From: Massilia sp. Leaf139
GTDB lineage: Bacteria > Pseudomonadota > Gammaproteobacteria > Burkholderiales > Burkholderiaceae_D
Length of the DNA stretch: 64,000 bases
Reading direction: 5' to 3'
Assembly (NCBI RefSeq): GCF_001424165.1
Contig: NZ_LMOJ01000001.1
Span: 523,194 to 587,193, forward strand
The notes below the pieces were generated by a model, which worked only from the letters and a program-made list of their open reading frames with translations, searched no databases and was not told the DNA's origin. This document shows positions 2 through 12,226 of this stretch, piece after piece. The translations under genes and the position numbers were made by a program. The first letter of the stretch is position 1. Each line of letters starts with the position of its first letter.

Positions 2-724
2 CTGGCCGCCGAAGGCGCCAGCGTCGGCGTGCTCGATGCCGACATCTACGGCCCTTCGCAGCCGATGATGCTCGGGATTAACGCGCGTCCGGAAAGCACC
101 GACGGCAAGACCATGGAGCCGCTGGAAAACCACGGCGTGCAGGTCTCCTCGATCGGCTTCATGATCGATCCGGACGAGCCGATGGTCTGGCGCGGCCCGA
201 TGGTCACGCAGGCGCTGCAGCAGCTGCTCGAGCAGACCAACTGGCGCGACCTGGATTACCTGATCGTCGACATGCCGCCCGGCACCGGCGACATCCAGCT
301 GACCCTGTCGCAGAAAGTGCCGGTCACGGGCGCCGTGATCGTCACCACGCCGCAGGACATTGCCCTGCTCGACGCGCGCAAGGGCCTGAAAATGTTCGAA
401 AAGGTGGGCATCCCGATCATCGGCATCGTCGAGAACATGAGCACCCACGTCTGCTCGAACTGCGGCCATACCGAAGCGATCTTCGGCCACGGCGGCGGCG
501 AGAAGATGTGCAAGGACTTCGGCGTCGACTTCCTGGGCGCGCTGCCGCTGACCATGTCGATCCGCGAGCAGGCCGATTCGGGCCGGCCGACGGTGGTCGC
601 CGATCCGGATGGCGCCGTCGCCTCGGTCTACAAGCAGATCGCGCGCAAGGTGGCGGTCAAGGTCGCGGAAAAGGCCAAGGACATGACCAGTAAATTCCCT
701 AGCATCGTGGTCAAGAACGACTAA
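2..724 (+). CDS. apbC: Mrp/ApbC-type Fe-S cluster carrier ATPase (5' end outside window)
   Basis: This is the C-terminal part of a P-loop Fe-S carrier protein of the Mrp/ApbC/Nbp35 family, which binds a 4Fe-4S cluster and passes it to apoproteins in the cytoplasm. The frame is open from base 2, so the start and the Walker A loop lie upstream. Visible landmarks are the switch region VLDADIYGPSQP, the VDMPPGTGD stretch, and the CSNCGH CxxC motif expected to bridge the cluster in the dimer. The stop is TAA at 722-724. One copy of an intergenic repeat begins about 16 bp after it. The family call is secure. Whether any N-terminal MIP18/DUF59 domain exists cannot be seen. Confidence 0.93.
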   Translation: MAAEGASVGVLDADIYGPSQPMMLGINARPESTDGKTMEPLENHGVQVSSIGFMIDPDEPMVWRGPMVTQALQQLLEQTNWRDLDYLIVDMPPGTGDIQLTLSQKVPVTGAVIVTTPQDIALLDARKGLKMFEKVGIPIIGIVENMSTHVCSNCGHTEAIFGHGGGEKMCKDFGVDFLGALPLTMSIREQADSGRPTVVADPDGAVASVYKQIARKVAVKVAEKAKDMTSKFPSIVVKND

Positions 725-740
725 GAGCGGCTAACGAGTC

Positions 741-805
741 CCATGGCTGGGTTGCATCCGTCTTGCCGTACCAAGGTTTGTCTGCGACGAATGCGCCTTG
801 CCCTG
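741..805 (+). repeat. Intergenic repeat family A, copy 1
   Basis: About 64 bp starting CCATGGCTGGGTTGCATC and ending GCGCCTTGCCCTGG. It resembles the copies at 16787-16850 and, inverted, at 56918-56980. Shared blocks are CATGG-N-GTTGCA, GCCGTAC, GTCT-CGACGA and ATGCGCCTTGCC. It lies just after the mrp stop, and this copy is the most diverged. The rest of the 725-1157 gap holds no gene that I can support. Confidence 0.7.
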
Positions 806-1085
806 GAACTGGCCGGTCGCTCCAAGCGTGAGTAAGTAATACATCAGCGCTGGTCGGGGACGGCTCGCCGGCCTGGGAGCGCTTCCCGAATACCAGGGCG
901 CGCGCCCTGCACGACCGGGTGCAGGGCCGCGCGAAACCCCCGCTGGCTGACGCTGCACACCACCAAGCCGGCGCTGCAATCCACCTGCAGCCCGCCTGAA
1001 GTTTCTCCCAAGCCAACACGACAGTTTTTCTTGTCAAGCGTTGCGCGCATGTTTTTCCGTCTTGCATCTGTTTAAAAATAAAGTC

Positions 1086-1107
1086 TGTAGGAAATTTCCT
1101 TCCTACA
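1086..1107. promoter_or_regulatory. Palindromic operator candidate upstream of the c-di-GMP gene
   Basis: TGTAGGAA (1086-1093) and TTCCTACA (1100-1107) form a perfect 8-bp inverted repeat around a 6-bp spacer, and GGAAATTTCC at its left side is itself palindromic. It sits 50 bp before the ATG at 1158 in a 433-bp gap. The size and dyad symmetry fit a dimeric regulator site. No regulator is identified. Confidence 0.45.
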
Positions 1108-1157
1108 CTGGCGGTTGACCTCATTCGCCAAGCGGCCGAAAGCCGCACCAAGGACAC

Positions 1158-3707
1158 ATGAACAGCACCTGCGCGCGATGGAGCGACCGTTACCTGGGCG
1201 CGAACCACTGGTTCATCCCCGCCGACCTGTTGGATCAGGCCGCGAACGCCCGTACCCGCGCCGAAAACGTCGTCAATGCGGCCCTGCTCGCGGCCACCGC
1301 CGGCCCTTTCTATGCGCTCGCCTACCACCTGATGGGCTTCGATGCGGCCGCCGTCGAGATCCTGCTGTGCTGCGCCTGCATGCTGGCCTCGCCGCTGCTG
1401 CTGCGCGCCAGCGGCAGCATCTGGGCCGCGCGCGAACTCTTCCTGTGCGCGCTGTTCTTCAACTTCACCTGGCTCAGCTTCAACCTGGGCGGCATCGGCG
1501 CGCCCACCGCGAGCTGGCTGATCACGGCGCCCCTGGTCGCCATGTTCCTCGGCGGGGTAGCCAGCGCCCTGTTCTGGCTCGCGCTCAGCTGCACCGCCGC
1601 CGTCGTCATCTATGCGCTGCCCGGCGCCGGCTATCCGCTCCCGGCGCATCCGGTGGCCGACATGGCGCTGCTGTACCTGGTGTGCCACCTCGGCCTGTTC
1701 GTGGTGGTGCTGGTGTTCGCGCTGCTGTTCGAACTGACCAAGAACCGCGGTTTCGTGAAGCTGGAGCAGGCGCTGGGTACCATCAACGAGCTGGCGATCC
1801 GCGACGAGCTGACGGGCGTGCATAACCGGCGCTACCTGATGCGCCTGATCGAAAAGGAAAAGGAGCGCAGCGACCGCAACGGCCGCGCCTTCTGTCTCTG
1901 CCTGCTCGACATCGATTTCTTCAAACGGATCAACGACACCTGGGGTCATAGCGCCGGCGACACCGTGCTGCGCGCCTTTGCCGGCACCGTGCAGGGCATG
2001 GTGCGCGGCAGCGACAGCTTCGGGCGCTACGGCGGCGAGGAATTCCTCCTGATGCTGCCGGAAACGAGCGCGGACGACGCGATGGTGCTGGCCGGCCGCG
2101 TGCGCGCCGCCGTCGAAAAAATGCGCTGCATGGAGGGTGGCAGCGAGATCGCGCTGACGGTGTCGATCGGCGTGGCCGAGTACCGCATGGGCGAGGCGGT
2201 CGGCCTGGCGGTCGGACGCGCCGACGAGGCCCTGTACCTGGCCAAGTCGAGCGGGCGCAACCGGGTGGTCTGCCACGGCCAGGACGAGGAACCGCTGGCG
2301 CTGGCGCTGCGCGCGAATGCGCCGGCCACCGTCGAACTGAAAGACCTGGGCGTGAGCGTCGGCCGGATGCTCGACGGCGTGCACTGCGACCAGCTCACGG
2401 GCCTGCTCAACCGCCGCCTGCTGCGCGACCGCCTGCGCCACGCCATGGATCGCGCCGACCGCAACCGCCGTCCGGTGGCGCTGCTGCTCCTGAATATCAA
2501 CAAGTTCAAGGAAGTGAACGACGCCCTCGGCTACGAAGCGGGGGACGCGCTGCTGGTGCAGGCCGGCGCCATCATCCGCCAGTGCCTGCGCGACTCCGAC
2601 ACGGTGGCGCGCTGGAGCGGCGACGAATTCGTCGCGCTGCTGGAAGACCTGGCCGCCGAAGGCGATTCGCGCCAGGTGGCGGAGAAGATCCTCGACCGCT
2701 TCGGGCTCCCTCTGAACGCCGGCGAGCGTGAATGCTTCGTCACGCTGTCGGTGGGCGTGGCCCTGTATCCGGCCGAGGAGTGCGACCTCGATGCGCTGCT
2801 CAAGCGCGCCGACATCGCCATGCGCAGCGCGCGCGCCTGGGGCGAGAACAGCGTACAGGTGTATTCGAGCGCCGGATGGTCAAAATTAGGCGAACCGAAG
2901 AGCGAGCGCCTGACGCTCAAGAACGGCCTGCGCGAAGCCCTCGCGCGCGGCCAGCTCTTCCTCGAATACCAGCCCCAGGTCGATCTCGGCACGCGCCGCA
3001 TCGTCGGCGTCGAGGCGCTGGTGCGCTGGCAGCATCCGCTCTACGGCCGCATCGATCCGGGCCGCTTCATCCCGCTGGCCGAGGAGACCGGCATGATCGT
3101 GCCGATCGGCGACTGGGTGCTGCGCACCGCCTGCGCCCAGAACCGCGCCTGGCGCGATGCCGGCCTGCCCGGCGTGAAGACGGCCGTGAACCTGTCGGCG
3201 CGCCAGCTGCGCCATCCCGGCATCGCCGCGCGCGTAATGGAAATCGTCCAGGGCGCGGCATTGCCGCGCGCCTGCCTCGATCTCGAAATCACCGAAGGCG
3301 TGCTGATCGAGGATCTCGCTGCAAATCGCGAGGTGCTAGGCGCGCTGCGCGCCGCCGGCGTGCTGGTCTCGATCGACGATTTCGGCACCGGCTATTCGAG
3401 CCTGAACTACCTCTCCGAGCTGCCCGTCGACATCCTCAAAATGGATGGCCTGTTCGTGCGCCGCCTGGGCGGCAGCGCGCGCGCCCGGCCGTATGCGATC
3501 GCCGAAGCGATCGTCGCGATGGCGCACCGGCTCGAGCTGAAGGTGATCGCCGAATGCGTCGAGACGGGCGAGCAGCTGGGCGACCTGGGCGCCATGTGCT
3601 GCGACGAAGCCCAGGGTTACCTGTTCCACCGTCCGCTGCCCGCCGAGCAGGTCGGCGTGCTGCTGGCGCGCCAGGCCGCGCAGCAGGCGAGCATGGTGCC
3701 AGCCTGA
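1158..3707 (+). CDS. Membrane GGDEF-GGDEF-EAL cyclic-di-GMP enzyme
   Basis: An 849-residue signalling protein. Roughly residues 35-205 hold about six hydrophobic segments (an integral-membrane sensor I cannot name). A canonical GGDEF domain follows (GGEEF near residue 291, with RGSD five residues before it as a possible inhibitory site). A second, degenerate GGDEF domain has SGDEF near 487, and a C-terminal EAL domain has EALVRW near 618. The EAL domain keeps EITEG, the double Asp of IDDFGTGYSS, the ILKMD lysine and a VETGEQ element, so phosphodiesterase activity is plausible beside cyclase activity of the first GGDEF. The ATG at 1158 has AAGGA upstream. The stop is 41 bp before the oxoamine synthase gene, which suggests co-transcription. 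The net direction of c-di-GMP change cannot be told. Confidence 0.92.
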   Translation: MNSTCARWSDRYLGANHWFIPADLLDQAANARTRAENVVNAALLAATAGPFYALAYHLMGFDAAAVEILLCCACMLASPLLLRASGSIWAARELFLCALFFNFTWLSFNLGGIGAPTASWLITAPLVAMFLGGVASALFWLALSCTAAVVIYALPGAGYPLPAHPVADMALLYLVCHLGLFVVVLVFALLFELTKNRGFVKLEQALGTINELAIRDELTGVHNRRYLMRLIEKEKERSDRNGRAFCLCLLDIDFFKRINDTWGHSAGDTVLRAFAGTVQGMVRGSDSFGRYGGEEFLLMLPETSADDAMVLAGRVRAAVEKMRCMEGGSEIALTVSIGVAEYRMGEAVGLAVGRADEALYLAKSSGRNRVVCHGQDEEPLALALRANAPATVELKDLGVSVGRMLDGVHCDQLTGLLNRRLLRDRLRHAMDRADRNRRPVALLLLNINKFKEVNDALGYEAGDALLVQAGAIIRQCLRDSDTVARWSGDEFVALLEDLAAEGDSRQVAEKILDRFGLPLNAGERECFVTLSVGVALYPAEECDLDALLKRADIAMRSARAWGENSVQVYSSAGWSKLGEPKSERLTLKNGLREALARGQLFLEYQPQVDLGTRRIVGVEALVRWQHPLYGRIDPGRFIPLAEETGMIVPIGDWVLRTACAQNRAWRDAGLPGVKTAVNLSARQLRHPGIAARVMEIVQGAALPRACLDLEITEGVLIEDLAANREVLGALRAAGVLVSIDDFGTGYSSLNYLSELPVDILKMDGLFVRRLGGSARARPYAIAEAIVAMAHRLELKVIAECVETGEQLGDLGAMCCDEAQGYLFHRPLPAEQVGVLLARQAAQQASMVPA

Positions 3708-3748
3708 GTTTTCTTCCCCCTTTTCATTCCCATAGCGAGGAGTACACC

Positions 3749-5131
3749 GTGCACGAGGAAACGATCGTCTTCGAGCGGGCCGCCGACATCGCCGAACTGG
3801 AAGTTAGCGGCGCGCTGCGCGGCAGCGTCGCCCAGTTCGCGCAGCCGCGCGGCGCCAACCTGTTGCGCCGTACCGAGGCGCTCGACGCCTGGTGCCGGCT
3901 GCGCACCACGCATGGCGTCTGGCAGTACGCGCGCGCCATCGACGGCGCGCCGACGCCGGAGTCGAGCGTGCACGAGGAGGGCGAACTGCCGGGCACCGGC
4001 ACCCGCGGCATCAATTTCGCGTCCCAGGACTACCTGTCGCTGGCCTCGCACCCGACCGTGCGCGAAGCGGCCCAGGCGGCCCTGGTCGAGGCCGGCCCGC
4101 ACAGCGCCGGCTCAGCGGTACTGCTCGGGAACAGCCGCCTGTCGCTGCGCCTGGAAGAGGCGCTCGGCACGCTGCTGCAGATGGAACACGTGACCCTGTT
4201 CCCCACCGGCTGGGGCGCCGCCTTCGGCGTCATCACGGCGCTGGTCGGGGCGCGCGACTACGTGCTGGTCGACCAGCTCGCGCATGCCTCGCTGCGCCAG
4301 GGTGCGAACGCCGCCACCCGCAACGTGGCGCTGCATCGCCATCTTGACACCGGCCACGTGCGTGAACTGCTGGCCGCGATTCGCGCGCGCGATACCGAGA
4401 ACGGCATCCTGGTCGTCACCGAAGGCCTGTTCAGCATGGACGCGGATTGCCCGGATCTGCCGCTGATGCAGCACCTGTGCCGCGAGTACAACGCCACCCT
4501 GCTGGTCGACGTGGCGCACGACCTGGGCGCGCTCGGGCCGGGCGGCACCGGCAGCCTGGGCCAGCAGGCCATGCTGGGCAAGGTCGACCTGGTGATGGGC
4601 GCCTTCTCGAAAACCTTCGCCTCGAACGGCGGCTTCGTCGCCTGCGCCTCGCGCGCGGTGAAGCGCCAGCTGCAGCTGTTCGCCGGCCCGCACCTGTTCT
4701 CGAATGCGCTCTCGCCGGTGCAGGCGGCCTGCGTGCTCGAATCGCTGCGCATCGTCGCCAGCGGCGAGGGCGACGCCCTGCGCGAGGCGCTGCTGCGCAA
4801 TGCCGTGGCGCTGCGCGCCAACCTGGCCGAAACCGGCATGCGCTGCCTGGGCGTGCCATCGGCCATCGTGCCGCTCTGGATCGGCAGCGAGCAGGTGGCG
4901 CGCCTGGCGGGGCGCACGCTGGCGCGCGAGGGCGTCTTCGTCAACGCGGTCGAGTATCCGGGCGTGCCGCTCGGGGCGGCGCGCCTGCGCCTGCAGGTGA
5001 TGGCGGCGCACCGGCCGGCGCAGCTGCGGCAGGGAGCACGGATGATCGGCGCGGCGGTCAGCGGGGCCGGCGCGGCGCTCGGCGTCGAACCGGCGCGCCA
5101 GCCCAGCCCGAGGGAGCGCGCCCGTGGCTGA
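3749..5131 (+). CDS. Alpha-oxoamine synthase-family PLP enzyme
   Basis: A 460-residue fold-type I PLP enzyme of the family containing KBL, BioF, ALA synthase, serine palmitoyltransferase and CqsA. These condense an amino acid with an acyl thioester, with loss of CO2, to give an alpha-aminoketone. Family marks are the SQDYLSLASHP entry, DVAHDLG (Asp254, His257, cofactor contacts) and GAFSKTFASNGG with the predicted Schiff-base Lys288. About 95 residues precede the conserved core. The GTG at 3749 was chosen because GCGAGGAG lies 6-14 bp upstream and no better start exists in frame. The gene overlaps the next by 8 bp, and that protein carries its own acyl-carrier domain, so the acyl donor is probably ACP-bound. 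The amino-acid partner is unknown. Confidence 0.88.
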   Translation: MHEETIVFERAADIAELEVSGALRGSVAQFAQPRGANLLRRTEALDAWCRLRTTHGVWQYARAIDGAPTPESSVHEEGELPGTGTRGINFASQDYLSLASHPTVREAAQAALVEAGPHSAGSAVLLGNSRLSLRLEEALGTLLQMEHVTLFPTGWGAAFGVITALVGARDYVLVDQLAHASLRQGANAATRNVALHRHLDTGHVRELLAAIRARDTENGILVVTEGLFSMDADCPDLPLMQHLCREYNATLLVDVAHDLGALGPGGTGSLGQQAMLGKVDLVMGAFSKTFASNGGFVACASRAVKRQLQLFAGPHLFSNALSPVQAACVLESLRIVASGEGDALREALLRNAVALRANLAETGMRCLGVPSAIVPLWIGSEQVARLAGRTLAREGVFVNAVEYPGVPLGAARLRLQVMAAHRPAQLRQGARMIGAAVSGAGAALGVEPARQPSPRERARG

Positions 5132-8100
5132 CGCTTCCGACCCCGCGAACATGCCCCTTGTCCAGCAGCTGCGCGAACGCGCGCGGCGCACGCCGGGCCG
5201 CATCGCCTATACCTTCCTGCGCGAGAACGGCAGCGAACACGACATCTGCTATGCCGAGCTGGCCGCGCGCGTCGACGCCCTGGCGGCGCAGATGCTGGCG
5301 CAGCTGCGTCCGGGCGCGCGCGCCTTGCTGCTGTATCCGGCGGGGATCGACTTCATCGTCGCCTTTTTCGCCTGTCTGGCGGCCAGCGTGGTCGCTGTGC
5401 CGGCGGCGCCGGCCAACCGCGCGCGCGATAGCGCCCGCCTGGCGGCGCTGACCGGCGACGCCGCCCCGGCGCTGGTGCTGTGCGCGCCCGAGACGCAGGC
5501 CGCAACCGCCGCGGCGCTGGCGCACGTGGGCTGCACGGCGCCCATGCTGTGCGGCGCAGGCGCTGCCGCGGCGGCCGTCCTGCCCGCGCCATCCGGTACG
5601 TCGGTCGCCTTTCTCCAATATACCTCCGGCTCGACCGGCCAGCCGAAAGGCGTCGAAGTCACGCATGCGAACATCGCCGCCAACGTGGCGGCGATCGGCA
5701 GCGCCTTCGGCTTCGGGGTCGACACGGTCATGGTCAGCTGGCTGCCGCCCTTCCACGACATGGGCCTGATCGGCAGCATCGCCGCGCCGCTGGCGCACGG
5801 CTTCCGCTCGGTGCTGATGGCGCCCGGGGCCTTCCTGCGCCGCCCGGCGGCCTGGCTGGAAGCGATTATGCGCTACCGCGCCACCTGCAGCGGCGGGCCG
5901 AACTTCGCCTGGGATTTGTGCCTGCGGCGCGTCAGCGACGCGCAAAAGGCGGGGCTGGACTTGTCGAGCCTGGACGTGTTCTACAACGGCGCCGAGCCGG
6001 TGCGCGCGCAGACGCTGGCGCGCTTCATCGAGAGCTTCGGCCCCTGCGGGCTGCGGCCGCAGGCGGTCTTCCCCTGCTACGGCATGGCCGAGGCGACGCT
6101 GCTGGTGGCGGGCGGGCCGCGCGGCCGCGCGCCGCGCATCCTCCATCTGGACGGCGCGGCGCTCGAGCAGGGCGCCGTGTGCGAGGCGGCATCAAGCCAG
6201 GGCCGCGCCCTGGTCAGCTGCGGCCCGGCGGCGCCCGGCGTCGAGGTGGCCGTGATCGACCCGGCGCGCTGCATTCCGGCCGCCCCGGGCGTGATCGGCG
6301 AGCTCTGGATCGCGGGAGCCGGTGTCGCGCGCGGCTACCATGGCCGCGCCCAGGACAGTGCCCGGCTGTTCGGCCTGCGCGTGGCGGATGCGCCCGCGGC
6401 GCTGCTTGGAGCGCGCTGGCTGCGCAGCGGCGACCTCGGCTTCGTGCGCGACGGCGAAATCTATATTGCCGGCCGCCGCAAGGACGTCATCGTCATCAAT
6501 GGGCGCAAGATCCACGCCCGCGACGTGGAAGCGCTGGCGGAGGACGCCTGCCCCGAACTGGCGCCCAACAGCTGCGCCGCCTTTGCGCTGGAGGGAGAGG
6601 GCAGCGAGTGCATGGCGCTGGTGGTCGAGGCGCCGCGGGCGCTGGCGCGCGGCGGCGACATCGACGCGGTGGCGCGCCGCATCCGCGCGGCGGTCGTGCT
6701 GGGCACGGGCATGCCGCTGCACACGCTCGCCTTTGTCGCACCGGGCGTGTTCCCGCGCACGACCAGCGGCAAGGTGCAGCGCGCGCGCTGCCGGGAGGCC
6801 TTGCAGCGGGGCAGCCTGCCGCTGCTGGCCATGCGCTCGCCCGGCATCGGGGACGGCGGCGCGCGCGCGGACGCCGTCATCGCCTGGCTGCGCAGCTATG
6901 CGCAGCGCCGGCTCGATTCGCGCCTGGCCGACGAGCGCCGTTCGCTCGCGCCCCACGTGCTGCTCGATTTCGGCGCCCGCGGCCTGCTTGGCCTGCAGGC
7001 GCCGCAGGGCAGCGGCGGCCTGGCCCTGGCAACGGGCGACCTGGTACGCGTGATGGCGCAGCTGGCCGCGATCGACCTGACCCTGGCCACCATGGTGGGC
7101 GTGCACAACGGCCTGGGCTTGCGGCCACTGCTGCGCTTCGCGCCTGAGCAGCTGCGCGCGCAGTGGCTGCTCCAGCTGGCCTCGGGCCGCCAGCTGGCCG
7201 CCTTTGCACTGAGCGAGCCGCAGGCCGGATCGAATCCGCGCGCGATCGGCACCCGCGCCGACCGTGTCAAGGGCGGCTGGCGCATCAATGGCGAGAAGCA
7301 CCTGATCGGCCTGGTGGCCTGGGCCGGCGTGCTGACCGTGTTCGCGCGCGCCTTCGATGCCGGCGGAAAGGCGCTCGGCACCGTGGCCTTGCTGGTGCCG
7401 AGCGAGACGCCGGGCCTGGTGCTGGGGCCGGAAGCGCTGACGATGGGCATGCGCGCCATGCCGCAAAGCGCGGTGCGTTTCGACGCCGTCTTCGTGCCCG
7501 ATGCCCAGGTGCTGGGCAAACCGGGCGCCGGGATGGACGTGGCCCAGGACGCGATGGGCTTCGCGCGCCTCGGCATCGGCGCCCTGTGCGTGGGGGCGAT
7601 GAAGCGCTGCGCCCAGCTGATGGCGCGCTACAGCGCGCGCCGCGACGTCGCCGGCGGGCGCCTGCTCGACAACCCGGTGACCCTCCTGCGCCTGCACGAA
7701 CTCGATTGCGCCATCAAGGCCGCTGAATCCCTGGTCGACGCGCTGGCAACCTGCATGGACGAGCAGGGGCCACTGCCGCTGGACGCCTTCAGCGCCTGCA
7801 AGTGCGTACTGTCGGAACTGCTGTGGGAAGCGGCCGACCACCTGATGCAGATGCTGGGCGGACGCGGCTACCTCGAGACCAACCTTGCGCCGCAACTGCT
7901 GCGCGACGCGCGCGTGCTGCGCATCCTGGAAGGCCCGAGCGAAGCCCTGTATGTCCACCTGGGCGCGGTGGTGCGCGTGCCGGGCAATCCGATCGCGAAA
8001 ACGGTCGCGCGCCTGGGCGCCTTCGATTACCTGGCGCTGCTGGCGAACCTGCCGGCGCAGGGCCTTGGCGTCTGGCAGGACGGACGCAACGGCGAATTCG

Positions 8101-8849
8101 CCGCCTGGACGCTGCTGGCCGCCGCCGCACGGGGCGAAGCCGCAGCCTGGGCGGCGCGGCGCCTGGATGCGCTGCGCCGGGAGGTGGAAGCCGAGGGCGC
8201 GGCCGTCGACGACTGCCCGTCGGGCAGCGCCTTGCTGGCACGGGTGGCGCAGCATGCGCTGGCAATCGGCGACATCGAGCAGAGCGCGCCGGGCGAGGCC
8301 GGCGGGCTCGATGCGCTGCTGCGCCAGGCGCTGCCGGAGGCGCCACCCGCACCGGCCGCCCCGGCCCCGTTGGCCGCGCCGCCCGCGCTGCTGACGCCTG
8401 CTGCATCCGTGGCGCCGGCGGCAGCGGCGGCGCTGTCGAGCCTGGAGCTGGTGCACGCCTGCCTGCAGCGCTGGCTGCGCGAAGGCGGTACGGGCGAGGG
8501 TGCGCCAGGGATCGAGGGCTGGAACGTCGACACGCCCTTCAGCGACATCGGCATCGATTCGCTGGCCTCGGTGCCGTTGGCGCTGGAACTCGAGCAGGCC
8601 AGCGGGGTGCCGGTCACCGCCGAGCTGCTCTACGATTATCCGACGGTGCGCTTGCTGGCCGGGTATATAGACGAACAGCACGACGAACTGCGCGATGCAC
8701 AGTGCAATGAGCCGCGCGACCGGCAGCGCGATCCACGGCACGATGCGGATCGTGACGCGCAGGCTGACGTGGCGGACGACGCACAGGACGGCGCCACGTG
8801 TGCGCAAGCAGAGGAGGGGATCGCCGCCGCATCGGGCGCATCGGGGTAG
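5124..8849 (+). CDS. Fatty-acyl-AMP ligase / acyl-CoA dehydrogenase / ACP fusion
   Basis: A 1241-residue three-part enzyme. Residues ~1-575 are an adenylate-forming ligase: YTSGSTGQPKGV near 165, YGMAEATLLV, then GRRKDVIVINGRKIHARDVE, a pattern closer to fatty-acyl-AMP ligases than to CoA ligases. Residues ~590-955 are an acyl-CoA dehydrogenase domain with FALSEPQAGSNP and LEGPSEALY, where the catalytic glutamate is expected. Residues ~1105-1175 are an acyl carrier domain with GIDSL, Ser1146 being the phosphopantetheine site. A charged tail rich in Asp, Arg and His follows. The order suggests activation of a fatty acid, loading on the carrier, and alpha,beta-desaturation in cis. The GTG at 5124 overlaps the upstream oxoamine synthase. 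The product is not predictable beyond an unsaturated acyl chain. Confidence 0.88.
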   Translation: MADASDPANMPLVQQLRERARRTPGRIAYTFLRENGSEHDICYAELAARVDALAAQMLAQLRPGARALLLYPAGIDFIVAFFACLAASVVAVPAAPANRARDSARLAALTGDAAPALVLCAPETQAATAAALAHVGCTAPMLCGAGAAAAAVLPAPSGTSVAFLQYTSGSTGQPKGVEVTHANIAANVAAIGSAFGFGVDTVMVSWLPPFHDMGLIGSIAAPLAHGFRSVLMAPGAFLRRPAAWLEAIMRYRATCSGGPNFAWDLCLRRVSDAQKAGLDLSSLDVFYNGAEPVRAQTLARFIESFGPCGLRPQAVFPCYGMAEATLLVAGGPRGRAPRILHLDGAALEQGAVCEAASSQGRALVSCGPAAPGVEVAVIDPARCIPAAPGVIGELWIAGAGVARGYHGRAQDSARLFGLRVADAPAALLGARWLRSGDLGFVRDGEIYIAGRRKDVIVINGRKIHARDVEALAEDACPELAPNSCAAFALEGEGSECMALVVEAPRALARGGDIDAVARRIRAAVVLGTGMPLHTLAFVAPGVFPRTTSGKVQRARCREALQRGSLPLLAMRSPGIGDGGARADAVIAWLRSYAQRRLDSRLADERRSLAPHVLLDFGARGLLGLQAPQGSGGLALATGDLVRVMAQLAAIDLTLATMVGVHNGLGLRPLLRFAPEQLRAQWLLQLASGRQLAAFALSEPQAGSNPRAIGTRADRVKGGWRINGEKHLIGLVAWAGVLTVFARAFDAGGKALGTVALLVPSETPGLVLGPEALTMGMRAMPQSAVRFDAVFVPDAQVLGKPGAGMDVAQDAMGFARLGIGALCVGAMKRCAQLMARYSARRDVAGGRLLDNPVTLLRLHELDCAIKAAESLVDALATCMDEQGPLPLDAFSACKCVLSELLWEAADHLMQMLGGRGYLETNLAPQLLRDARVLRILEGPSEALYVHLGAVVRVPGNPIAKTVARLGAFDYLALLANLPAQGLGVWQDGRNGEFAAWTLLAAAARGEAAAWAARRLDALRREVEAEGAAVDDCPSGSALLARVAQHALAIGDIEQSAPGEAGGLDALLRQALPEAPPAPAAPAPLAAPPALLTPAASVAPAAAAALSSLELVHACLQRWLREGGTGEGAPGIEGWNVDTPFSDIGIDSLASVPLALELEQASGVPVTAELLYDYPTVRLLAGYIDEQHDELRDAQCNEPRDRQRDPRHDADRDAQADVADDAQDGATCAQAEEGIAAASGASG

Positions 8850-8879
8850 AATAGCCGCTTTATCATTACGCTTTTCGCC

Positions 8880-10283
8880 ATGACCGTCCGCACCCCTGTT
8901 CGTACCCGGTTCGCCCCCAGCCCGACCGGCTATCTCCACCTCGGCGGCGCCCGCACCGCGCTGTATTCCTGGGCCTACGCCCGCCATTTCGGCGGGACGT
9001 TCATCCTGCGCATCGAGGACACCGACCTCGAGCGCTCGACGCCGGAAGCGGTGCAGGCGATCCTGGACGGCATGCAGTGGCTGGGCCTCGCGCACGACGA
9101 AGGCCCGTTCTACCAGATGCAGCGCATGGATCGCTACCGCGAAGTCGTCAAGGGCATGCTGGAAGCCGGTACCGCCTACCTGTGCTACTGCTCGCCGGAA
9201 GAAGTCGAAGCCATGCGCGAGCGCATGCGCGCAGCCGGCGAGAAACCGCGCTACGACGGCACCTGGCGTCCCGAGCCGGGCAAGACCTTGCCCGCCGTGC
9301 CGGAAGGCGTGAAGCCGGTGGTGCGCTTCAAGAATCCGCTGGACGGCGAAGTAACCTGGAACGACGTCGTCAAAGGCCCGATCACGATCGCCAACAAGGA
9401 GCTCGACGACCTGATCATCGCGCGTCCGGACGGCACGCCGACCTATAACTTCTGCGTCTCGGTCGACGACTGGGACATGCGGATCACCCACGTGCTGCGC
9501 GGCGACGACCACGTCAACAACACCCCGCGCCAGATCAACATCCTGCGCGCCCTGGGTGCCGAGCTGCCGGAATACGGCCACCTGCCGATGATCCTGGGCC
9601 CGGATGGCCAGAAGCTGTCCAAGCGCCACGGCGCCGTCAGCGTGATGCAGTATCCGGAGCAGGGCTATCTGCCGGAAGCCATGCTGAACTACCTGGCGCG
9701 CCTGGGCTGGAGCCATGGCGACGACGAAATCTTCACGATGGAACAGTTCACCGAGTGGTTCAACCTCGAGCACCTGACCGCCTCGGCGGCCCAGTTCAAT
9801 CCGGAAAAGCTGGCCTGGCTGAACAACCATTACATCAAGGCGGCCGACAACGAACGCCTGGCCGCGCTGGTGCGTCCGAAAATGGACAGCCAGGGCGCGC
9901 AGTTCGAAGGCGCTCCCGCCTTGCCGGGCGTGCTGGCGCTGGTGAAGGATCGCACCAACACCATCAACGAGCTGGCCGACGCGGCCATGCTGTTCTACCG
10001 CCAGCCGCAGCCGGACGCGGCCCTGCTGAGCCAGCACCTGACCGATACGGTGCGTCCTGCGCTGGCCGCGTTCGCCGAGCGCTGTCAGACGGTCGAATGG
10101 AACAAGGCCGCGCTGGCCGCCATGCTCAAGGAAGTACTGGCAGCGCACGGGCTCAAGATGCCGCAGATCGCCATGCCGCTGCGTTTGCTGGTCACCGGCC
10201 AGCTGCAGACGCCGGCCATCGACGCAGTGCTGGAACTGTTCGGCCGTGAGACCGTGTTGGCCCGTGTAGGGAAGGGACTGTAA
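8880..10283 (+). CDS. gltX: Glutamyl-tRNA synthetase
   Basis: A 467-residue class I aminoacyl-tRNA synthetase that charges tRNA-Glu. The HIGH-type element is [11 protein letters not shown] (His20), and the KMSKS-type loop is KLSKR (residues 245-249). The length is normal for bacterial GluRS of the discriminating or non-discriminating type, which sequence reading alone does not settle. The ATG lies 30 bp after the preceding TAG. That TAG is itself part of a TAGAAT hexamer (8847-8852), but I see no matching -35. Three tRNA-Glu genes and two tRNA-Ala(GGC) genes follow directly. A gltX/tRNA-Ala(GGC) neighbourhood also occurs in Escherichia coli. Confidence 0.97.
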
Positions 10284-10347
10284 TTCGGACGTAATGCGGG
10301 CTTGTCGTTCGCGACTGCAATCCGTTTGATCTTCTTCAAAACGGTAT

Positions 10348-10376
10348 TTGCGTAATGCAAGAACCCCCGCTATAAT
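10348..10376 (+). promoter_or_regulatory. Sigma-70 promoter of the tRNA array
   Basis: TTGCGT (10348-10353), a 17-bp spacer, and a perfect TATAAT (10371-10376). The predicted start near 10383 leaves a leader of about 13 nt before the first tRNA-Ala. Confidence 0.75.
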
Positions 10377-10395
10377 GCTCGCACTTCAGCAGTAC

Positions 10396-10471
<76 letters not shown>

Positions 10472-10500
10472 AGTTGAAGTGTTGTAATCGGTAGTTCAGG

Positions 10501-10576
10501 GTCCCCATCGTCTAGAGGCCTAGGACATCACCCTTTCACGGTGAGTACCGGGGTTCGAATCCCCGTGGGGACGCCA
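10501..10576 (+). tRNA. tRNA-Glu (anticodon TTC), copy 1
   Basis: The acceptor GTCCCCA pairs with TGGGGAC, the anticodon loop CTTTCAC gives TTC, and the CCA is encoded. The body is identical to the other two Glu copies. It lies 29 nt after the first tRNA-Ala. Confidence 0.97.
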
Positions 10577-10640
10577 AGATGCCGGCAGAGGTTTGCCGGA
10601 CGCTGCGCCAGCGGCAGCGGTAGTAGAAGCAGTGGCAATA

Positions 10641-10649
10641 TGGTATGAT
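10641..10649 (+). promoter_or_regulatory. Internal extended -10 before the second Ala-Glu unit
   Basis: TGG followed by TATGAT (10644-10649), 15 bp before the second tRNA-Ala. No clear -35 is seen. This fits a second promoter carried along when the Ala-Glu unit was duplicated. Confidence 0.4.
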
Positions 10650-10664
10650 GTTGTTTTACCCGTG

Positions 10665-10740
<76 letters not shown>

Positions 10741-10792
10741 CGTTGAAGAATACGCAGTAAATCGCGTAGCAGGCAGTATCGGTAGTTCCAGG

Positions 10793-10868
10793 GTCCCCAT
10801 CGTCTAGAGGCCTAGGACATCACCCTTTCACGGTGAGTACCGGGGTTCGAATCCCCGTGGGGACGCCA
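10793..10868 (+). tRNA. tRNA-Glu (anticodon TTC), copy 2
   Basis: Identical in sequence to the copy at 10501. The anticodon loop is CTTTCAC and the CCA is encoded. Confidence 0.97.
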
Positions 10869-10912
10869 AGAATTTGGCAGCAGTAGTACATTAGCAGTCG
10901 GAACAGTTTTAG

Positions 10913-10988
10913 GTCCCCATCGTCTAGAGGCCTAGGACATCACCCTTTCACGGTGAGTACCGGGGTTCGAATCCCCGTGGGGACGCCA
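10913..10988 (+). tRNA. tRNA-Glu (anticodon TTC), copy 3
   Basis: Identical tRNA body. The 44-nt spacer before it differs from the other spacers, so this copy arose by a separate event from the Ala-Glu unit duplication. It is followed within 12 bp by a terminator. Confidence 0.97.
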
Positions 10989-11000
10989 GTCAAAGCAAAA

Positions 11001-11030
11001 AAAGCCGCTGAAAAGCGGCTTTTTGCTTTT
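11001..11030 (+). terminator. Rho-independent terminator of the tRNA array
   Basis: AAAGCCGCT (11001-11009), loop GAAA, AGCGGCTTT (11014-11022), then a T-rich run. The stem can be extended by the flanking A- and T-rich tracts. Confidence 0.9.
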
Positions 11031-11059
11031 CCACTTTGTTTTTCTCGACCATCCCGCCT

Positions 11060-12226
11060 ATGTCCACTTCCCCCAGCGCCTGTTCCACGCCATCGCTGGC
11101 GATCTTCTGCAAGGTCATCGACAACTACGGCGACATCGGCATCTGCTGGCGCCTCGCGCGTCAGTTGCACATCGAGCATGGGGTTGCGGTCACGCTCTGG
11201 GTCGACGACCTGGTCAGCTTCCGCCGGATCTGCCCCGAAGTCGATCCGGCAGCGTCCATTCAGCAGGTGGCGGGCGTCGCGGTGCGCCACTGGCGCGGCC
11301 AGGACGACGACTACACCCCGGACGAGGTCGCCGACATCGTCATCGAATTTTTCGCCTGCGACATTCCGCCCCGGTATATCGAGGCGATGGCCGCGCGCAC
11401 GCCCAAGCCCGTGTGGCTGAACCTGGAAGGCTTGACGGCGGAGGAGTGGGTCGAAGGCTGCCATGCCTTGCCGTCCATGCATCCGCGCCTGAAGCTGACC
11501 AAACATTTCTTCTTCCCCGGCTTTACTGAAAAAACCGGCGGGCTGCTGCGCGAAGCCGGCCTCGAGCGCGAACGGCGCGCCTTCCTGGCCGATCCGCAAG
11601 GGACGCGCACTTTCCTGCGCGCCCTCGGCCTGACGGACGGCGAACTCGATGCCCTGAAAGTGTCGCTGTTTTGCTATCCACATGCCCCGGTCGCCGAATT
11701 GTTCGCGGCCTGGCAGGGCGGGGCCAGCAAGGTCGCCTGCCTTGTGCCGGAAGGGGTCGCATCGGAAGCGGTCGCAGCCTTCCTGGGAACGGGAGCGCGC
11801 GCAGGCGCCGTTGCCACCCGCGGCGCGCTGACCGTGCGCGTACTGCCGTTCGTGCCCCAGCCCCACTACGACCGCCTGCTGTGGGCCTGCGACCTGAATT
11901 TCGTGCGCGGCGAGGATTCCTGGGTGCGTGCCCAGTGGGCCGGCAAGCCTTTCGTCTGGCACATTTATCCGCAAGACGAGAACCTGCACCACAAGAAATT
12001 ACGCGCTTTCCTGGCACGCTATGCGCCCGAGATCGCCAGCCTGCAGGCGCTGATGCTGGAATGGAACGGAGCGGGCACGGGCCCAGCCGACTGGCCTGCC
12101 TTATGGGCGGCACTGCTGGCCGATCAGGCGCAGATCGAGCGCCGTTCCGAGGAATGGCAGGACGCAATGTCGCGCAATGGCGACCTGGCATCCAACCTGC
12201 TGCGCTTTGCTGCTTCACTTCGTTAG
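11060..12226 (+). CDS. earP: EF-P arginine rhamnosyltransferase EarP
   Basis: A 388-residue glycosyltransferase that moves rhamnose from dTDP-rhamnose onto Arg32 of elongation factor P, which activates EF-P to relieve ribosome stalling at polyproline. Family motifs are DNYGDIG near the N-terminus (Asp21 and Asp25 in this numbering) and GEDSWVRAQWAGKPFVWHIYPQ in the C-terminal lobe, with the conserved Glu. The efp gene follows 68 bp downstream and encodes Arg at position 32, the substrate expected for EarP. The ATG at 11060 is preferred over an upstream TTG at 11036 that falls just past the tRNA terminator. Confidence 0.95.
   Translation: MSTSPSACSTPSLAIFCKVIDNYGDIGICWRLARQLHIEHGVAVTLWVDDLVSFRRICPEVDPAASIQQVAGVAVRHWRGQDDDYTPDEVADIVIEFFACDIPPRYIEAMAARTPKPVWLNLEGLTAEEWVEGCHALPSMHPRLKLTKHFFFPGFTEKTGGLLREAGLERERRAFLADPQGTRTFLRALGLTDGELDALKVSLFCYPHAPVAELFAAWQGGASKVACLVPEGVASEAVAAFLGTGARAGAVATRGALTVRVLPFVPQPHYDRLLWACDLNFVRGEDSWVRAQWAGKPFVWHIYPQDENLHHKKLRAFLARYAPEIASLQALMLEWNGAGTGPADWPALWAALLADQAQIERRSEEWQDAMSRNGDLASNLLRFAASLR

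Follow-up and report, generated by a model that had tools for sequence, protein, structure and literature searches.

In a 64,000-nucleotide stretch of the Massilia sp. Leaf139 genome (contig NZ_LMOJ01000001.1, positions 523,194 to 587,193; hereafter the window), a gene for an alpha-oxoamine synthase (AOS) lies between a gene for a membrane protein with two GGDEF domains and one EAL domain and a gene for a fusion protein composed of fatty-acid-AMP ligase (FAAL), acyl-CoA dehydrogenase (ACAD) and acyl carrier protein (ACP) parts. We found that the usual partner of this AOS in two distant lineages is one six-helix membrane domain, which is carried on histidine kinases in alphaproteobacteria and on the GGDEF-GGDEF-EAL protein in Massilia. 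Because one synthase family goes together with one membrane domain bearing swapped outputs, and because the two co-occur even where they are not linked, the locus probably encodes a synthase of an alpha-aminoketone signal and a dedicated receptor domain, the output of which would be a kinase or, in Massilia, turnover of cyclic di-GMP (c-di-GMP).

The partnership is evident within Massilia, where the AOS is usually accompanied by the membrane sensor gene and not by the fusion. Among 62 Massilia genomes, the AOS (E ≤ 1e-60) and the membrane domain (E ≤ 1e-40) were each detected in 40; both were present in 39 and neither in 21, with the AOS alone in one (G336) and the domain alone in another (G312), in which gltX adjoins the domain gene where the AOS would stand. 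Three further Massilia genomes matched the domain weakly (E about 1e-14 to 1e-16) and were kept outside the count. To this we added 40 fetched stretches (L071-L110), which comprised 37 Massilia AOS loci covering 36 of the remaining 39 AOS genomes of the genus (G327, G334 and G344 were left out), two AOS loci from outside the genus (L082 and L083) and one stretch without AOS (L084), giving 39 AOS loci. A membrane GGDEF-EAL gene was located directly upstream of the AOS on the same strand in 37 of them, being split in L073, and the membrane domain was on a long open reading frame (ORF) with GGDEF-EAL in 36. The fusion was missing from 12 of the 39 loci, in which the AOS adjoins gltX or other genes; 11 of these 12 retained the sensor (L071-L079, L104 and L105), once as a joint domain-AOS ORF and once in split form. 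Furthermore, neither mrp nor gltX was found in the stretch at nine of the 39 loci, seven of which contained the domain as a short stand-alone ORF; the sensor-AOS unit therefore holds together at more than one place. Short stand-alone domain ORFs were seen in seven of the 39 loci in all. In L076 (9064-11070) and its twin L132, from Telluria aromaticivorans, 142 of the 174 domain positions run into the AOS as a single ORF, and GGDEF-EAL is missing.

The original prediction had described the AOS and the fusion as a self-contained two-gene route, and its picture did not include the GGDEF-GGDEF-EAL gene at 1158-3707. The two genes are not the unit: 13 of the 40 Massilia AOS genomes had no match to the ACAD of the fusion, which refutes the idea that the two always occur together. 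The converse half of the pairing stood, since the fusion was always accompanied by the AOS in the genomes searched. Neither a fusion common without the pyridoxal phosphate (PLP) enzyme nor one set in a different chemistry was found: all 27 Massilia genomes with an ACAD match (E ≤ 1e-80) were among the 40 AOS genomes, and among 145 sampled genomes of the family, for each of which a limited number of candidates was scored so that copies could be hidden, six had an ACAD match, five of them as a full fusion adjoining the AOS (G000, which is the genome of the window, G056, G328, G419 and G485). Since every ACAD genome in the genus has the AOS while 13 AOS genomes have no ACAD, and since the full fusions of the family all stand beside the AOS, the fusion appears to be accessory to the AOS and not the reverse. 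The sixth genome of the family sample, G358 (L084, 8600-14056), encodes a nonribosomal peptide synthetase (NRPS) and no AOS; the N-terminal ACAD of this synthetase shares 44% identity with that of the fusion, and such dehydrogenases therefore serve lipopeptide lines too.

To look outside the genus, we scanned one genome per species across 84,980 species with a pattern-based search and kept the best 80 of 220 relatives, 52 of which were not titled Massilia or Telluria. The domain was near the AOS in the fetched stretch in 36 of these 52 loci, of which 33 bear alphaproteobacterial titles, two are titled Proteobacteria (L149 and L152) and one is titled Frankia sp. RB7 (L150). The AOS of L150 groups with those of Xanthobacteraceae in the tree, and its label is probably wrong. 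The 52 loci contain 70 domain ORFs, of which 68 matched the L150 kinase across the kinase region and the other two were fragments. Pfam analysis detected HisKA and HATPase in all three domain ORFs that were run (two of L150 and one of L182), as well as in a hybrid kinase from a different genome (L234). A receiver protein and a domain-free GGDEF-EAL protein were often present in the same loci. When 26 genomes were searched whole, 20 contained the domain in 42 copies, 35 of which were within the fetched AOS stretches (up to 8 kb either side). In one order, represented by 249 genomes, the domain (E ≤ 1e-40) was found in six and the AOS in nine; all six domain genomes were AOS genomes, and none of the 240 AOS-free genomes had the domain (Fisher 2.7e-10, kinship ignored). 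The co-occurrence does not come from linkage alone, because the domain and the AOS are on different contigs in G688 and the domain lies elsewhere in the genome in L167 and L188.

These counts also bear on whether the membrane domain is a sensor at all. Transport or processing of the AOS product would account for the stand-alone domain ORFs and for the Telluria ORF joined to the AOS, but nearly all domain ORFs in the 52 loci outside Massilia and Telluria resemble kinases and the domain sits with GGDEF-EAL in most Massilia-group loci. We consider product handling improbable accordingly.

Several observations weigh against the reading of the locus as a signal synthase with its receptor. Sixteen of the 52 loci had no domain: five from Myxococcota, four from Mycobacterium, two on short contigs (L159 and L169), one each from Armatimonadota, Sericytochromatia and Flavobacteriaceae, and the two alphaproteobacterial loci mentioned above. 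In the whole-genome search the domain was absent at E ≤ 1e-10 from six genomes (two Myxococcota, two Mycobacterium, one Flavobacteriaceae and one Sericytochromatia). In the sampled order, three of the nine AOS genomes had no domain, one of them with a stop inside the AOS, and 22 more genomes matched the domain weakly (E 1e-10 to 1e-20, in open frames of roughly 590-670 residues) and gave no AOS match; these are perhaps remote relatives that serve other functions. The order scans scored at most 12 and at most seven candidates per genome, and copies could be hidden. Within Massilia, the AOS is partial in G327 and in two pieces in G334, both among the 40 AOS genomes, and the Fisher value of 2.6e-14 is overstated because the counts reflect one inherited, linked locus. 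With Foldseek, the membrane domain matched no PDB structure at E ≤ 0.001. Its profile homology to 13 JqsS sensor regions was not detectable (hhalign probability 0.4%, E 0.14), and on this comparison a CqsS-type sensor was rejected. Finally, the product, the ligand and the phenotype of the AOS system are all inferred.

The neighbours in the domain-free loci, which include acyl-CoA ligases, an FAD oxidoreductase and patatins, also give these loci a metabolic look. In L138 (6292-12321, Myxococcaceae) the AOS relative is beside an FAD oxidoreductase and two acyl-CoA ligases, and in L183 (6693-9722, Flavobacteriaceae) it shares one ORF with an FAD oxidoreductase-like part, as recognized by eye; these two relatives perhaps belong to a different product pathway. 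Patatin-like phospholipases flank the AOS relative on either side in L170 (6334-10136, Mycobacterium simulans). Two other domain-free relatives stand near signalling proteins, namely two ordinary histidine kinases in L158 (9903-12829, Sericytochromatia) and a GGDEF-EAL protein in L140 (9490-11706, Armatimonadota). AOS enzymes are commonly biosynthetic, and the locus of the window might likewise be a small metabolic route to a lipid base, a pigment or an antibiotic precursor, with GGDEF-EAL proteins and kinases regulating it on other cues; the settings of L138, L170 and L183 would suit such a route. However, no tailoring enzyme or exporter was found among the scanned neighbours in the window, the AOS was kept without the fusion in the 12 loci described above, 11 of them with the sensor, and one domain with swapped outputs would not readily follow from the ordinary regulation of a pathway. 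Hence, this explanation seems unlikely, although less so than product handling.

Turning to the enzyme itself, the AOS belongs, judged by sequence, to a separate family, and its PLP site is intact. It matched the curated models of BioF, KBL, serine palmitoyltransferase (SPT), ALAS and the CqsA type, and scored below the cut-off of all of them: 281.7 bits against 426.45 for BioF; 221, 212.2 and 171.1 bits against 640, 500 and 670 for the SPT models; and 163.3 bits against 428 for the CqsA/LqsA/JqsA model NF005526. The genome of the window holds another BioF (G000:C23, 440.2 bits) and another KBL, and for the CqsA/LqsA/JqsA synthases it gave no match at E ≤ 1e-100. With a hidden Markov model (HMM) built on the Massilia-group alignment, AOS rows scored 464-820 bits and the reference paralogues of the same fold 66-202 bits. 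A 57-row tree placed the 39 AOS rows (with duplicates among them) on one side of a branch with support of 100/100, and BioF, KBL, ALAS, one SPT-like row and the CqsA/JqsA rows (four JqsA) fell outside it; several reference rows were long-branched. Roles in biotin (BioF), threonine (KBL) and sphingolipid (SPT) metabolism were rejected on the basis of the sub-cut-off scores and the separate position in the tree. Among these, a sphingolipid-like long-chain base for membranes, made by the AOS as an SPT with its own acyl-ACP supply, deserves separate mention, since the AOS does match the SPT models and the sphingolipid genes of Caulobacter include an ACP and an acyl-ACP synthetase beside the SPT. 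Nevertheless, every SPT cut-off was missed, no reductase or N-acyltransferase was found among the scanned neighbours, and the family stands apart from the sole SPT-like row in the tree; we regard this alternative as very improbable.

The conserved residues agreed with the superfamily assignment. Asp254, His257 and His179 were present in all 36 AOS rows and all eight references, and Lys288 in 35 of the 36 rows and all eight references; the window AOS thus has the PLP lysine and the conserved Asp and His tested for as marks of the alpha-oxoamine synthase superfamily. His118 and Glu402 were found in 36/36 AOS rows and in 0/8 reference rows. Arg412 was likewise present in all 36 rows and is shared with the BioF, KBL and ALAS references; in the SPT-like row and three CqsA-type rows, the alignment places Leu at this position. 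Because Glu402 lies ten residues ahead of Arg412, it may have a part in the choice of the amino acid. The AOS probably couples an amino acid to a fatty acid. In L108 (9769-10944), from the AOS-only genome G336, Lys288 is replaced by Val and neither the membrane sensor nor the fusion is present; this copy is decaying or repurposed.

The membrane protein is hydrophobic over its N-terminal 200 residues according to hydropathy analysis. The AlphaFold model of the membrane domain (pLDDT 93.1, pTM 0.87) contained six long helices, so that the predicted domain agrees with the CqsS, LqsS and JqsS sensors in having six helices, here putatively transmembrane. The domain had no Pfam or NCBIfam match, and its consensus shows WFIP ahead of the first long helix and GGVxSPTLPW in mid-domain. 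In 38 aligned membrane GGDEF-EAL proteins, the window included, the first GGDEF motif (GGEEF) and the EAL motif were present throughout, and the second GGDEF motif was GGDEF in 26 and SGDEF in 10, the window protein having SGDEF. From this pattern of motif conservation, both synthesis and breakdown of c-di-GMP appear possible. The genome of the window also encodes another membrane GGDEF-EAL protein with a domain of this family, at 48% identity (L233, 5706-8156; G000:C24). Its neighbours are flagellar-looking by eye and its stretch contains no AOS; this setting would fit a motility output.

The 1241-residue fusion was assigned by Pfam to AMP-binding (residues 16-406), the N, M and C parts of acyl-CoA dehydrogenase (585-942) and PP-binding (1134-1182), with the carrier serine in GIDSL. 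When the window fusion was compared with 26 homologues, the lysine of the A domain (SGK.QR) and the glutamate of the ACAD (EGP) were conserved in 27/27, and the carrier serine in 26/27, the exception being L101, which has no aligned ACP. For the FAAL part, an NRPS model ranked first (over its first 568 positions), followed by fatty-acid-AMP ligase models, all below cut-off; the nearest solved chains were 7r7e (titled polyketide synthase) and 3kxw, followed by the fatty-acid-AMP ligases FadD23 and FadD32. In these predicted affinities the part is nearer to FAALs than to acyl-CoA ligases. The ACAD part scored 130.5 bits with the RedW model and 115.5 bits with the PigA model, both below cut-off. 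FAAL and ACAD were located downstream of the AOS in 26 of the 39 fetched loci; one of the other 13, L097, stops at a contig edge, and the ACAD of that genome is on another contig. The 52 loci outside Massilia and Telluria showed no FAAL-ACAD fusion; several of them gave weak AMP-ligase matches, and one, L142, gave an ACAD-like match at 30%.

The layout of the locus is given in Table 1. The original description of a GTG-started PLP enzyme with Lys288, sharing 8 bp (5124-5131) with the three-part 1241-residue protein bearing Ser1146, was confirmed by the ORFs, Pfam and the residues. The AOS starts 41 bp after the GGDEF-GGDEF-EAL gene on the same strand, and gltX starts 30 bp past the end of the fusion. 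The other scanned neighbours were ordinary-looking (Mrp/ApbC, EarP, EF-P, an amidase, DbpA and one ORF without a family). Codon-position GC supported coding of 5124-8849. As a single ORF, the AOS did not pass the codon-position GC filter, because its frame is open upstream to 2732; the GTG at 3749 matches the start position of AOS homologues. Over 500-11100, the promoter scan gave no promoter-like signal against 0.7 expected and the terminator scan four terminator-like signals against 5.8 expected, and neither kind was found on the + strand between 1158 and 8880.

Table 1 Features of the AOS locus, in positions of the window.
Feature	Positions	Strand	Basis and proposed role
Membrane GGDEF-GGDEF-EAL protein, 849 aa	1158..3707	+	Pfam GGDEF twice and EAL; proposed receptor with c-di-GMP output
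Six-helix N-terminal membrane domain, residues 1-205	1158..1772	+	Hydropathy, structure model, same domain on kinases elsewhere; proposed ligand sensor
AOS, GTG start, 460 aa, PLP Lys288	3749..5131	+	Proposed alpha-aminoketone signal synthase
FAAL part of the 1241-aa fusion (GTG start, 5124-8849), about residues 1-570	5124..6833	+	
ACAD-like part, about residues 571-960, EGP glutamate	6834..8003	+	
Linker between ACAD and ACP, about 170 residues, without Pfam match	8004..8522	+	
Acyl carrier domain, phosphopantetheine Ser1146	8523..8669	+	

We propose that the system works as follows. As expected from the chemistry of the superfamily, the AOS would condense an amino acid with an acyl thioester, with loss of CO2, to form an alpha-aminoketone. 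In Massilia strains bearing the fusion, the FAAL would load a fatty acid onto the ACP, the ACAD would desaturate the tethered chain, presumably leading to an enone, and the AOS would off-load it as an unsaturated aminoketone. The membrane domain would bind the AOS product or a spontaneous derivative of it, and in Massilia this binding would shift the synthesis or breakdown of c-di-GMP, probably with a motile-sessile switch as the result. The enzymology proposed originally, in which AOS condensation is combined with acyl activation and desaturation of the tethered chain, is consistent with the domains and with the residues that are conserved; a signal had been one of its three options for the product.

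Whether the system extends to a widespread new class of alpha-aminoketone signalling is, in our estimate, evenly balanced. Such a class would consist of one synthase family and one six-helix receptor domain, carried on kinases in alphaproteobacteria such as Bradyrhizobium, Microvirga, Phenylobacterium and Methylocapsa and on a c-di-GMP enzyme in Massilia, with the fusion providing a desaturated dialect. If this is true, plant- and soil-associated alphaproteobacteria and Massilia have a common chemical language outside the N-acylhomoserine lactone, diffusible signal factor (DSF) and CqsA classes, the receptor domain can be recognized from a genome alone, and the Massilia receptor ties a lipid signal to c-di-GMP directly, with no phosphorelay. 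No description of an AOS with the membrane sensor or with the fusion was found in the titles and abstract openings listed by searches of an open-access library, which is weak evidence of novelty.

Among known systems, BioF, KBL, ALAS and SPT share the AOS fold and the PLP residues with the window AOS, whereas the latter belongs to a separate family by HMM scores and by His118 and Glu402. For the fusion, tambjamine TamT and TamP combine acyl or aminoacyl activation with a dehydrogenase acting on a carrier-bound chain, as do PigA and RedW of the prodigiosin type; in contrast, FAAL, ACAD and ACP form one chain here and the partner is an AOS. In the DSF-type RpfF/RpfR system, the gene for a fatty-acid-derived signal adjoins that of a GGDEF-EAL protein, but the synthase here is an AOS and not enoyl-CoA hydratase-like, and the sensor is a membrane domain. 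The closest likeness is to alpha-hydroxyketone quorum sensing (CqsA/CqsS of Vibrio, LqsA/LqsS/LqsR of Legionella and JqsA/JqsS/JqsR of Janthinobacterium and Duganella), in which an AOS-fold PLP synthase likewise stands beside a six-helix membrane sensor kinase; the receiver protein in many of the alphaproteobacterial loci is a further likeness. The pairing of CqsA/LqsA synthases with the six-transmembrane kinases CqsS/LqsS is described in an excerpt of one study (PMC3376566), and the JqsA/S/R system of Oxalobacteraceae in an excerpt of another (PMC5080296). The AOS in the window differs from CqsA, LqsA and JqsA in forming a separate clade with sub-cut-off scores, and its sensor domain has no profile homology to the JqsS regions; moreover, the Massilia output is GGDEF-GGDEF-EAL, and the FAAL-ACAD-ACP fusion is often added. 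By analogy, the AOS/sensor pair most likely works like CqsA/CqsS but belongs to neither family.

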